DNA of 49,298 nt from Rikenellaceae bacterium (GTDB taxonomy: Bacteria; Bacteroidota; Bacteroidia; Bacteroidales; Rikenellaceae), in the NCBI GenBank assembly GCA_031262465.1, contig JAISHQ010000094.1, positions 1 to 49,298 of the forward strand. Reading direction: 5' to 3'. How positions within the stretch are numbered: position 1 is the first letter of the stretch; every line of letters begins with the position of its first letter. This document shows positions 27,621 to 46,801 of the stretch, in pieces. The notes beneath the pieces are model-generated. The model worked only from the letters and a program-made list of their open reading frames with translations. It was not told the origin of the DNA and made no database searches. Both the position numbers and the translations under genes were made by a program.

Positions 27621-28067
27621 TTAAATTTGTTGGTAACGATCTATTTCCAACGATACATCTTCCGCCCTTGTTTTCGGGATCACAAAAGCCCGTTGATAGG
27701 GGGTGACCACTGTCCAATAATTACCACCGAACAAGATAGATAATTTGACCCGATACTGGCCGTTGTCTTCCCGGATAACCTCGCTGTAAATCGTTTTGAA
27801 TGGAGTATTCTCGGTGCCGGCGACCAACAACAGCGTGTATTTGTCAAAATCGACCGGCATCAGGCGTTCCGGATAGGTAAATATCGCTTCAAAAGCCCGT
27901 TGGTCGTTGATGACGATCAATGTGTTTTTTTGGTCGTCCCGGAGATTCAGATCAGAAGGGGATAGTGACGGGTATTCCCGATAGACAAAATCGTCAGGCA
28001 GAGTATCTTTCTTGCATCCCGAAAACAGGTAACAGGTGGCGACGAGGAGGAACAGGAGTTTTTTCAT
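27621..28067 (-). CDS. hypothetical lipoprotein downstream of S8 protease
   Basis: A 148-aa predicted lipoprotein (MKKLLFLLVATCYLFSGCKKD, Cys about 18). I do not recognise a family. The mature part looks like a small beta-rich domain: TLIVINDQRAFEAIF, YTLLLVAGTENTPFKTI, YRVKLSILFGGNYWTVVTPYQRAFVIPK. It starts 3 bp after the stop of the S8 protease gene, so the two are almost certainly co-expressed. A role as partner or inhibitor of the protease is possible but only inferred. Both lie inside the repeat-flanked island. Confidence 0.75.
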   Translation of the reverse strand: MKKLLFLLVATCYLFSGCKKDTLPDDFVYREYPSLSPSDLNLRDDQKNTLIVINDQRAFEAIFTYPERLMPVDFDKYTLLLVAGTENTPFKTIYSEVIREDNGQYRVKLSILFGGNYWTVVTPYQRAFVIPKTRAEDVSLEIDRYQQI

Positions 28068-42244: not shown

Positions 42245-42283
42245 AACTCAGCCGGGGAAAGCAAACCTCGGCTGAGTTTTTTT
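42245..42283 (+). terminator. intrinsic terminator between clpP and clpX
   Basis: A 13-bp stem, AACTCAGCCGGGG with CCTCGGCTGAGTT (one G-T wobble), followed by seven Ts. It begins 5 bp after the clpP stop. Confidence 0.92.
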
Positions 42284-43587: not shown

Positions 43588-43800
43588 TTTTAGAGATTGT
43601 TTGGAATATATTTTAGTTACTCCAAATACCTACCACCCCGTCACTTCGTGCCACCCCTCCTTCAGGAAGGAGGGGACTTTATTCAGTTAAATTTTCTTAG
43701 GGAAAAATCTCCTCCTTCTGAGAAGGAGGAGTACCCGAGCCGACAGGCGAGGGGGAGGTGGTAGGTCTTTTCTACATTTTACATAGAACCACTATGCGCC
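43588..43800 (+). repeat. family 3 element interrupted by family 2 element
   Basis: The left end TTTTAGAGATTGTTTGGAAT lies 6 bp after the clpX stop, and the apex ACATAGAACCACTATGCGCC is at 43781-43800. Both match the intact family 3 copy (read on the minus strand) in the same order and orientation, with one mismatch each. The interior is replaced by the family 2 element at 43628-43766. Confidence 0.65.
43628..43766. repeat. family 2 MITE-like element with ACCTACCACC ends, copy B
   Basis: Same perfect 10-bp terminal inverted repeats as copy A, in opposite orientation. Contains CCCCTCCTTC / GAAGGAGGGG and CTCCTTC / GAAGGAG hairpins and TACCCGAGCCGACAGGCGAG. 139 bp long, no ORF. Confidence 0.85.
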
Positions 43801-43828: not shown

Positions 43829-44770
43829 TCAGAGGGCGGCGCGGGGATGGCGTTTGGGGGCGAGGGTGATGGTGTCGCCTTCGCGGGCGATGAGGGTGTT
43901 GGGAAAGAGGGTGCGGGCTTCGTCCAAGAGCAGGCTGTCGTCTTTGTACCGCGACGAGAAATGGCCGATCAGCAGTTGGCCGACTTCGGCCAGCGAGGCC
44001 GCTTTGGCGGCTTGGAGGGCGGTGGTGTGGCCGGTCTCTTTGGCCAGCGGGCGGTCTTTGTCGAGGAATGTGGCCTCGTGGTAGAGCAGGTCGACCCCGT
44101 GAATTAGTCGGACAACCTTGCCGGAATAGAGCGTGTCGCTGCAAAAGGCATAGGAACGGGGAGGGTAGGGCACGTAAGTGGCCTCGGCGCAGGGAAGCGG
44201 GGTCCCGTCGGCTAAGAGAATGTCCTCGCCCCGTTTCAGCGCGGTGATTTGCGCCAGCGAAAGGCTGTGGCGGCGGATGACGGCCTTGTCGACGTTGAGC
44301 GGCGGGGTCTTTTCCCGGAAGAGGTACCCCGTGGCGGGGATGCGGTGGCGCAGGGGGATTGTCGTGACCTCCATCACCCGATTTTCATAGATCAGGCTCT
44401 CCTGCCGCGCGTTGACTTCGTGGCAGACAATGGGATAGCCCAAGTTTTGCTCGAAATGTTTCAGGTGAAATTGCAGGATTTCTTCGATCGGCGCAGGGCC
44501 GAAGAGGTGCAACGGCGTTTTTCGCCCGAAGTGGTTGAGGGTCGACAGCACGCCCGGCAGGCCGAAAACGTGATCGCCATGCAAGTGGCTGATAAAGATG
44601 GCATTGAGCTTCAGGGGCGAAATGCCGTATTGGCGCATCCGATCTTGGGTGCCCTCGCCGCAGTCGATTAAAAAAAACTGCTCATGCACATTGAGTGCAT
44701 GAGCAGTATGGTGGCGGTTCGCAGACGGGGCGGCAGAGCCGCAACCCAGTATGGTCACCCGGAAAGTCAC
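43829..44770 (-). CDS. rnz: ribonuclease Z
   Basis: Zinc endonuclease that trims tRNA 3' ends. The 313-aa protein has the MBL motif SHLHGDHVFGLPG (His62, His64, Asp66, His67) and the N-terminal ILGCGSAAPSANR, plus later ligands in YSGKV ... YHEATF and IGHFSSRYKD. It starts 3 bp after the rpsA stop. A perfect intrinsic terminator is embedded in its codons 22-34 (EQFFL uses eight consecutive Ts), so most rpsA transcripts probably stop inside this gene and rnz expression may be low or regulated. Confidence 0.95.
   Translation of the reverse strand: MTFRVTILGCGSAAPSANRHHTAHALNVHEQFFLIDCGEGTQDRMRQYGISPLKLNAIFISHLHGDHVFGLPGVLSTLNHFGRKTPLHLFGPAPIEEILQFHLKHFEQNLGYPIVCHEVNARQESLIYENRVMEVTTIPLRHRIPATGYLFREKTPPLNVDKAVIRRHSLSLAQITALKRGEDILLADGTPLPCAEATYVPYPPRSYAFCSDTLYSGKVVRLIHGVDLLYHEATFLDKDRPLAKETGHTTALQAAKAASLAEVGQLLIGHFSSRYKDDSLLLDEARTLFPNTLIAREGDTITLAPKRHPRAAL
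44670..44706 (-). terminator. rpsA terminator embedded in rnz coding sequence
   Basis: On the minus strand CTGCTCATGCAC and GTGCATGAGCAG form a perfect 12-bp stem with a 5-nt loop, followed by eight Ts. It lies 68 to 104 bp after the rpsA stop, fully inside rnz. In form it is as good as any terminator in the window. Confidence 0.88.
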
Positions 44771-44773
44771 GGC

Positions 44774-46801
44774 CTATTCCTCCGCTTTTTCGGCTTCGGC
44801 AGTCGCTTCTTTTGCCTCTTCGATCGCTTCTTGAGCGTCCAATTCGGATTTCAGTTCTTTCGCTTCGCCTTTGGGAGCCTTAGCCGGCTTGGCCGGTTTT
44901 ACGGCATCTTCCATTTGGGCTTTCAGCTCGGCCAGACCGGCCAGATCGCCGAGGGTGGTCTTCTCAACGGCGGCATTCACCTTTTTCACCGCGCTTTGGG
45001 TCGAAGATTGCTCTTTGGCCCGTCCGGCGCGCTCTTCGCGTTCGCTTTCGCGGCGGCTGTCGTCGTGGATGCGGGTGTGAGAGAGCAGGATGCGTTTGGT
45101 TCCTTTGGAGAACTCCAACACCTTGAAGGGCAGTTTTTCACCCACTTTGGCCGGGGTGCCGTCCTCTTTGATGAGCTGTTTGGCCGGGACGAAACCTTCT
45201 ACGCCTTCGGGAAGAACCACGATAGCTCCCTTGTCGTTCACCTCGGTGATCTCGCCTTCGTGCACCGTACCAACGCCATAAGTCGATTCGAGGGCATTCC
45301 ACGGATTTTCTTCCACCTGTTTGTGGCCGAGGCTCAAGCGGCGGTTTTCTACGTCGATTTCCAGCACAACCACGTCGATGTCGGCACCGATTTGGGTAAA
45401 TTCCGACGGGTGTTTCAGCTTTTTCGTCCAGCTCAGGTCGGAGATATGGATCAGGCCGTCGACACCCTCTTCGATTTCAACGAAGACACCGAAGTTGGTG
45501 AAGTTGCGCACTTTGGCCGTGTGTTGCGACCCCACCGGATAGCGGGCTTCGATGCCTGCCCACGGGTCGGGAGTCAGCTGTTTGATACCCAGCGACATTT
45601 TGCGTTCGTCGCGATCGAGGGTGAGGATTTTGGCTTCGACTTCGTCGCCGACTTTCAGGAAATCCTGAGCCGAACGAAGGTGTTGCGACCAAGACATTTC
45701 CGAAACGTGGATCAGCCCTTCGACACCCGGAGCAATCTCAACGAAAGCACCGTAATCGGCCATCACGACCACTTTGCCTTTGACCGTGTCGCCCACTTTG
45801 AACTCTTCGCTCAGGGCGTTCCACGGGTGCGGGGTGAGTTGTTTGAGACCCAGCGCGATCCGTTTTTTCTGGTCGTCGAAATCGAGGATCACCACGTTGA
45901 GTTTTTGGTCGAGTGCCAGGATTTCTTCGGGGTGGTTGACCCGTCCCCAGCTCAGGTCGGTGATGTGGATCAGGCCGTCGACACCGCCCAAGTCGATAAA
46001 CACCCCGTAAGAGGTGATGTTCTTGACGGTACCTTCGAGAATCTGTCCCTTTTCGAGTTTCGAGATGATTTCGGCTTTTTGTTGTTCCAGCTCGGCCTCG
46101 ATGAGGGCTTTGTGCGAAACAACGACGTTGCGGAACTCTTGGTTGATTTTCACCACCTTAAATTCCATGGTTTTGCCGACATAGATATCGTAGTCGCGGA
46201 TCGGTTTGACGTCGATTTGCGAACCCGGCAAGAAGGCTTCGATGCCGAATACGTCGACGATCATACCGCCTTTGGTGCGGCATTTGATGTATCCCTTGAT
46301 AATTTCGTCTTTTTCGAGGGCTTCGTTTACGCGATCCCACGAACGCAGTTGGCGCGCTTTTTTGTGGGAGAGGAGCAGTTGGCCGCGTTTGTCTTCGGCA
46401 CTCTCTACATACACTTCCACCTTTTCGCCGATGGCCAATTCCGGGTTGTAACGGAATTCGGTGATCGGGATAATACCGTCCGATTTGTAGCCGATATTGA
46501 CAACGACTTCGCGCTTGTTCAGGGCGATCACCGTTCCTTCGACCACTTCGCCGATCTGTACGTTGTTCAGCGTTTTGTCATACTCGGCCGCGATCTCCTC
46601 TTTGCTTCCTTGATAGAGGTCGAGTTCGTCCTCGAATTTGCTCCAGTCGAAATTTTCTACCGGAACCGAGGCGTTTTTCACCGGGGCTTTTGCTTTCGGC
46701 TCTTCTACGGCCACGGTTTCTTCAGCCACTTCAGCGACTTCCTGTACGGGTTGTGCCACTTCTTCGGCAACTTCCTGTACCTCTTTTTGTTCTTCACTCA
46801 T
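44774..46801 (-). CDS. rpsA: 30S ribosomal protein bS1
   Basis: Binds single-stranded mRNA and helps initiation. The 675-aa protein has an acidic N-terminal region (about 1-70) and six S1 OB repeats, e.g. GEVVEGTVIALNKREVVVNIG, GTVKNITSYGVFIDLGGVDG, GKVVVMADYGAFVEIAPGVEG and AKVRNFTNFGVFVEIEEGVDG. A Lys/Glu/Ala-rich tail of about 120 residues follows, a Bacteroidota feature. E. coli S1 is shorter (557 aa). The upstream leader of about 85 nt may allow autoregulation as in E. coli; not shown. Confidence 0.96.
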   Translation of the reverse strand: MSEEQKEVQEVAEEVAQPVQEVAEVAEETVAVEEPKAKAPVKNASVPVENFDWSKFEDELDLYQGSKEEIAAEYDKTLNNVQIGEVVEGTVIALNKREVVVNIGYKSDGIIPITEFRYNPELAIGEKVEVYVESAEDKRGQLLLSHKKARQLRSWDRVNEALEKDEIIKGYIKCRTKGGMIVDVFGIEAFLPGSQIDVKPIRDYDIYVGKTMEFKVVKINQEFRNVVVSHKALIEAELEQQKAEIISKLEKGQILEGTVKNITSYGVFIDLGGVDGLIHITDLSWGRVNHPEEILALDQKLNVVILDFDDQKKRIALGLKQLTPHPWNALSEEFKVGDTVKGKVVVMADYGAFVEIAPGVEGLIHVSEMSWSQHLRSAQDFLKVGDEVEAKILTLDRDERKMSLGIKQLTPDPWAGIEARYPVGSQHTAKVRNFTNFGVFVEIEEGVDGLIHISDLSWTKKLKHPSEFTQIGADIDVVVLEIDVENRRLSLGHKQVEENPWNALESTYGVGTVHEGEITEVNDKGAIVVLPEGVEGFVPAKQLIKEDGTPAKVGEKLPFKVLEFSKGTKRILLSHTRIHDDSRRESEREERAGRAKEQSSTQSAVKKVNAAVEKTTLGDLAGLAELKAQMEDAVKPAKPAKAPKGEAKELKSELDAQEAIEEAKEATAEAEKAEE

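Follow-up and report, generated by a model that had tools for sequence, protein, structure and literature searches.

The ribonuclease Z gene (rnz) of a Rikenellaceae bacterium (GenBank assembly GCA_031262465.1, contig JAISHQ010000094.1; the window is the whole 49,298-nucleotide stretch that was analysed) carries within its own codons a conserved stem-loop followed by a U-tract. This element is very probably the intrinsic terminator of the transcript of the upstream gene, rpsA, placed inside the downstream coding sequence as the two genes abut, and leaky enough to allow expression of the single rnz. The features of the locus are the following.

44774-46801, minus strand: rpsA, ribosomal protein S1 (NCBIfam equivalog), the gene upstream of rnz
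43829-44770, minus strand: rnz, ribonuclease Z, 313 aa, GTG start at 44770 (NCBIfam equivalog), the coding sequence that hosts the putative terminator
44677-44707, minus strand: putative terminator stem-loop of 13 bp with a 5-nt loop, in rnz codons 22-32 (fold, covariation, model matches)
44670-44677, minus strand: U-tract, eight T's directly 3' of the 12-bp stem, encoding Phe-Phe and part of a Leu
43709-43731, minus strand: terminator-like hairpin 3' of the rnz stop (hairpin scan)

The minus strand at positions 44707-44677 reads ACTGCTCATGCAC-TCAAT-GTGCATGAGCAGT, and the two arms enclose a loop of 5 nt. The core stem of 12 bp occupies 44706-44678 and becomes 13 bp when the closing A-U pair is included; position 44677 is both the first T of the U-tract and a partner in this outermost pair. 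Stem and U-tract together span rnz codons 22-34, and the stem begins 67 nt past the rpsA stop. The first-pass annotation had placed a 12-bp stem, eight T's and the encoded peptide at these codons and coordinates, and all of this is correct on the minus strand, as is the anatomy of stem and U-tract within the rnz coding region. It had also called the stem perfect, which is true of the source rnz (13 bp with the closing A-U) but does not hold as a rule, since many relatives retain 10-11 of the 12 pairs. The hairpin has the stability of an intrinsic terminator, with a fold energy of -23.7 kcal/mol (z = -8.5 against dinucleotide shuffles) and a consensus fold in 18 family members. The U-tract is likewise that of an intrinsic terminator, with eight T's here, U-rich sequence in relatives and selection at the codon level.

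Several other identities of the element were ruled out. A DNA-binding palindrome would not explain the tolerated G-U pairs or a U-tract on one side only. A repeat or uptake-type sequence is excluded as the stem sequence occurs once in the source genome. Transcriptional slippage at the U8 is excluded by the interrupted tracts TTTTATTT and TTGTTTTT, which are common among relatives, and a known RNA family by the lack of any Rfam match at the gathering threshold or at E values up to 5. It should be mentioned that a second, weaker covariance-model match in the source genome, at C72:15221, directly follows another ORF and has the appearance of an ordinary terminator.

The hairpin lies within rnz because rnz, present as a single copy in the source genome, starts only a few bases past the rpsA stop. 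A true rnz start 3' of the hairpin can be dismissed: the protein can be aligned from residue 6 onward with solved RNase Z structures, and conservation of the N-terminus extends to genomes without the hairpin. No exact match to a Bacteroidetes-type promoter was found between rpsA and rnz. The terminator-like hairpin at 43731-43709 suggests that some transcripts get to the end of rnz. At 43654-43731, between the convergent clpX and rnz, there are two back-to-back terminator-like hairpins of similar sequence (CTCCTTC..GAAGGAG). An encoded CCA is absent from 24 of the 32 tRNA genes seen, so that RNase Z would be expected to be necessary.

Other hairpins were noted in the window, all on the plus strand. 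A strong 13-bp terminator at 42245-42278, between clpP and clpX, would separate genes that are often co-transcribed elsewhere. A 13-bp terminator hairpin at 2018-2046 is flanked by two ORFs that were identified by eye, one for a META/HslJ-like lipoprotein and one CvpA-like; it was ruled out as a second intragenic terminator, being intergenic with the downstream start at 2111. An 11-pair hairpin with a U-tract at 27898-27922 is on the strand opposite to the ORF 27621-28067 (minus), and is possibly an antisense terminator or a product of chance.

A covariance model of the hairpin finds it in 127 of 393 Bacteroidales genomes, one match per genome, at E values up to 1e-7, a number of the match places having been compared with the places of rnz. 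The matches fall in 42 families, as counted from the match table. By direct sampling of sequences, the same rnz codons carry the hairpin in 32 of 51 families; its bearers include Alistipes, Perlabentimonas gracilis, Anaerophaga thermohalophila and one Marinilabiliaceae MAG. The hairpin is absent from the sampled Bacteroides, Parabacteroides and Prevotella. All 29 of the rnz genes examined outside Bacteroidales have neither rpsA upstream nor the hairpin.

To judge from gene order, the presence of the hairpin tracks the upstream gene and not rnz. Where rpsA lies directly upstream of rnz, or with a STAS gene between them (together termed rpsA-linked), the hairpin is present in 134 of 172 rnz genes, a share that is overestimated since the sequence sample was enriched for rnz close to the query, versus 3 of 107 unlinked genes. 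The same-strand upstream gene expected of an intrinsic terminator is therefore in place. In the final set of 43 loci, the hairpin is above threshold in 10 of the 26 rpsA-linked loci with a readable motif. The order is rpsA-STAS-rnz in most Bacteroidales families and rpsA-rnz in Rikenellaceae and some others. A STAS gene (anti-sigma antagonist-like) is seen just 5' of rnz across much of the phylum (L028, L030, L033 and others; L135-L162). Within the sample, rpsA precedes STAS-rnz only in Bacteroidales, and elsewhere in the phylum both rpsA and the hairpin are missing; STAS-rnz pairs without rpsA have the hairpin in 0 of 23 cases. In all three unlinked genes that bear the hairpin, another gene is inserted just upstream (L205:2722-3495, L250:527-2082 and L265:718-1701), and by eye the C-termini of these inserted genes look like type-9-secretion sorting domains. 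The first-pass annotation had looked to conservation of the stem in relatives, and the stem is conserved there with covariation, nearly confined, apart from these three, to genomes with rpsA upstream.

Space between the genes appears to matter as well. With few exceptions, genomes with the hairpin have ≤40 nt between the upstream stop and the rnz start, the two often overlapping, and the stem starts 52-180 nt (median 74) 3' of that stop. Where the hairpin is absent behind rpsA, an ordinary terminator is often present in a widened gap: a gap terminator of conventional type was found in 17 of 38 rpsA-linked genomes without the hairpin, versus 4 of 134 with it, and in these four (L090, L094, L099 and L102, from the first set) the stems are weak. 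The scan found no gap terminator in the other 21 of the 38, and there a terminator would be either dispensable or of another type. An element that accompanies a close upstream gene, and that is replaceable given space, is what is expected of that gene's terminator.

The contribution of codon usage was evaluated with a null model in which the rnz protein was kept fixed and synonymous codons were resampled from local usage in 2000 draws. Recoded versions of the source rnz form on average 5.8 of the 12 pairs, and none of the 2000 draws gave 12 pairs with eight T's; the hairpin in the source rnz is not due to chance. Among 112 rpsA-linked relatives, included regardless of hairpin presence, the mean is 10.8 pairs versus 6.6 expected, with a summed Z of 34 that is uncorrected for relatedness. 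For 20 rnz genes without rpsA upstream the same null gives 5.55 pairs observed and 5.27 expected. The choice of codons is biased at both ends of the element. At the foot of the stem, Arg is encoded by CGG in 61 of 73 codons, whereas CGG accounts for 9% of the Arg codons in the rest of these genes. Codons 32-34 in hairpin genomes encode mostly FFL, LFL or FYL, and the ratio of TTT to TTC at the U-tract Phe is 207:15, versus 1113:673 farther downstream in rnz.

Pairing has also been maintained through compensatory change. In 118 distinct hairpins, preselected at ≥9 of 12 pairs so that the percentage of paired bases is inflated, double changes occur in 10 of 13 pairs, with 151 cells versus 37 in shuffles, counts that are inflated by relatedness among the genomes. 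The covariation score is 0.357, versus at most 0.129 for slid versions. On a rough tree from which the codons of the hairpin were excluded, 10 to 14 changes among Watson-Crick types are required at every one of the five pairs nearest the loop; the well-supported branches alone gave too few pairs to decide.

Some of these changes reach the protein. At codon 24, which encodes either His (CAT) or Gln (CAG/CAA), the third position is the stem partner of the middle base of codon 29. Among genomes with the hairpin, the ratio of purine-centred to pyrimidine-centred codons at position 29 is 88:0 with His24 and 20:28 with Gln24. In genomes without the hairpin, the corresponding ratios are 10:1 and 123:7, with no association. 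One lineage has SAQILNVSEQFY with the stem GCTCAGATAC/GTATCTGAGC, and another has TACVINSHEQFF with a different but intact stem. The earlier proposal of joint selection on protein and terminator is supported by this conserved, covarying stem, with some of the changes apparently selected at the level of amino acids.

Considering that the anatomy, the selection on pairing and on the U-tract, the dependence on the upstream gene and the replacement by gap terminators are established by sequence comparison, we infer termination, its leakiness and its effect on expression as follows. The hairpin would end an abundant transcript, that of rpsA here and of rpsA-STAS in most other families. RNA polymerase that has passed rpsA would form the hairpin, which lies beyond the last ribosome translating rpsA or STAS, and would mostly terminate at the U-tract. 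A minority of polymerases would read through to give full-length rnz mRNA. Whatever its promoter, a full-length rnz mRNA crosses the terminator, so that some polymerase must read through. In this way a shared transcription unit could yield much S1 and little RNase Z, and leaky termination that sets the ratio of S1 to RNase Z would be the simplest account. As a plausible extra layer, a ribosome that enters rnz close behind the polymerase might cover the stem and so increase read-through.

Other explanations of the hairpin have to be weighed against leaky termination. The well-conserved peptide around NVHEQFFLIDCGEGTQ restricts the codons that can be used, and the hairpin might be a by-product of protein and codon constraint with no RNA function; this is contradicted by the codon null, the compensatory changes, the dependence on the upstream gene and an amino-acid covariation that is seen only in genomes with the hairpin, and its probability is close to nil. 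RNase Z might instead regulate itself by binding or cutting its own mRNA at the 12-bp helix. Its substrates are tRNAs with stacked acceptor and T stems, and the stem here appears about equal in length to these two together. However, such a site should accompany rnz, and it is missing from 104 of the 107 rnz genes without rpsA upstream; it would have no need of a U-tract, and the 5-nt loop encodes Leu-Asn, a pair of residues often seen in the RNase Z of this group. Autoregulation of this kind is very improbable. Terminator hairpins also stabilise upstream mRNA, and a hairpin that chiefly keeps exonucleases from attacking rpsA mRNA at its 3' end, or serves as a processing site, with little termination, would also be compatible with the dependence on rpsA. 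Neither role needs a U-tract, yet the U-tract is conserved and selected at the codon level, which makes this explanation unlikely, although somewhat less so than the preceding two.

A stronger rival is a translation-controlled attenuator, in which regulation is the main purpose: having completed rpsA or STAS, ribosomes that restart at rnz would trail the polymerase and cover the stem, and rnz expression would report the capacity for ribosomes or initiation. The stem is about 21 codons into rnz, within reach of a close ribosome, and coupled restart would be favoured by the placement of the rnz start, which in genomes with the hairpin is close to the upstream stop or overlaps it; the coding position is also retained in many families. 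In E. coli, the hairpins of intrinsic terminators are known to be blocked by ribosomes that trail the polymerase (PMC5021804). However, in the same study a terminator inside a translated E. coli reporter still lowered output about 18-fold (PMC5021804), so that translation need not open a terminator, and the substitution by ordinary gap terminators in some lineages indicates that the coding position is not essential. No conserved antiterminator fold was found in 18 family members, where prediction gave only two helices, the stem of the terminator and one of 4 pairs in which no double changes occur; read-through would then come from the ribosome or from plain leakiness. We regard the attenuator as possible but doubtful. 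It is with similar reserve that we consider a broader version, in which ribosomes entering rnz sense the terminator, so that across Bacteroidales the maturation of tRNA 3' ends would be coupled to how much S1 is made and to the capacity for translation, and the residues of RNase Z would have been shaped to keep this switch working. Leaky termination of the rpsA transcript remains our preferred reading.

The rnz hairpin resembles intrinsic (Rho-independent) terminators in its G+C-containing stem followed by a U-tract, on the sense strand 3' of a highly expressed gene. It differs from them generally in that all of it falls among the sense codons of the following gene and that it is kept partly by paired amino-acid changes. 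Mixed operons of E. coli such as rpsU-dnaG and rplL-rpoB have partial terminators that follow a ribosomal protein gene and are intergenic. Lower expression of the gene downstream of a ribosomal protein gene would be a shared property of rpsA-rnz, in which, by contrast, the terminator is coding. In E. coli frd-ampC, the terminator of the upstream operon sits in the ampC leader and can serve as the ampC attenuator; in both cases the transcript of the downstream gene contains the upstream terminator, but in rnz it is within codons rather than a leader. ORF-internal 3' ends, some with terminator-like structures, have been reported in E. coli and Borrelia (PMC7815308, PMC10319736). Those ends come from RNA mapping in single species, whereas the rnz hairpin is known from sequence, through order-wide conservation and covariation. 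The pyrL terminator is a translation-dependent attenuator whose hairpin can be blocked by an advancing ribosome (PMC5021804). An advancing ribosome could likewise block a hairpin such as that in rnz, which, unlike the pyrL type, has no leader peptide and lies inside an enzyme gene, with relief by the ribosome only plausible. Full-text searches, covering few subscription journals, found no published description of the rpsA-rnz terminator, and its novelty is provisional.

At this locus one can readily test how bacteria express a gene that they need when a terminator lies inside it, and whether translation opens that terminator. It would be a clear natural case, spanning much of a bacterial order, of one stretch of DNA that is both conserved protein and transcription terminator. 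As amino-acid pairs here appear to be chosen by RNA pairing, covariation between residues may stem from RNA and not from protein contacts.
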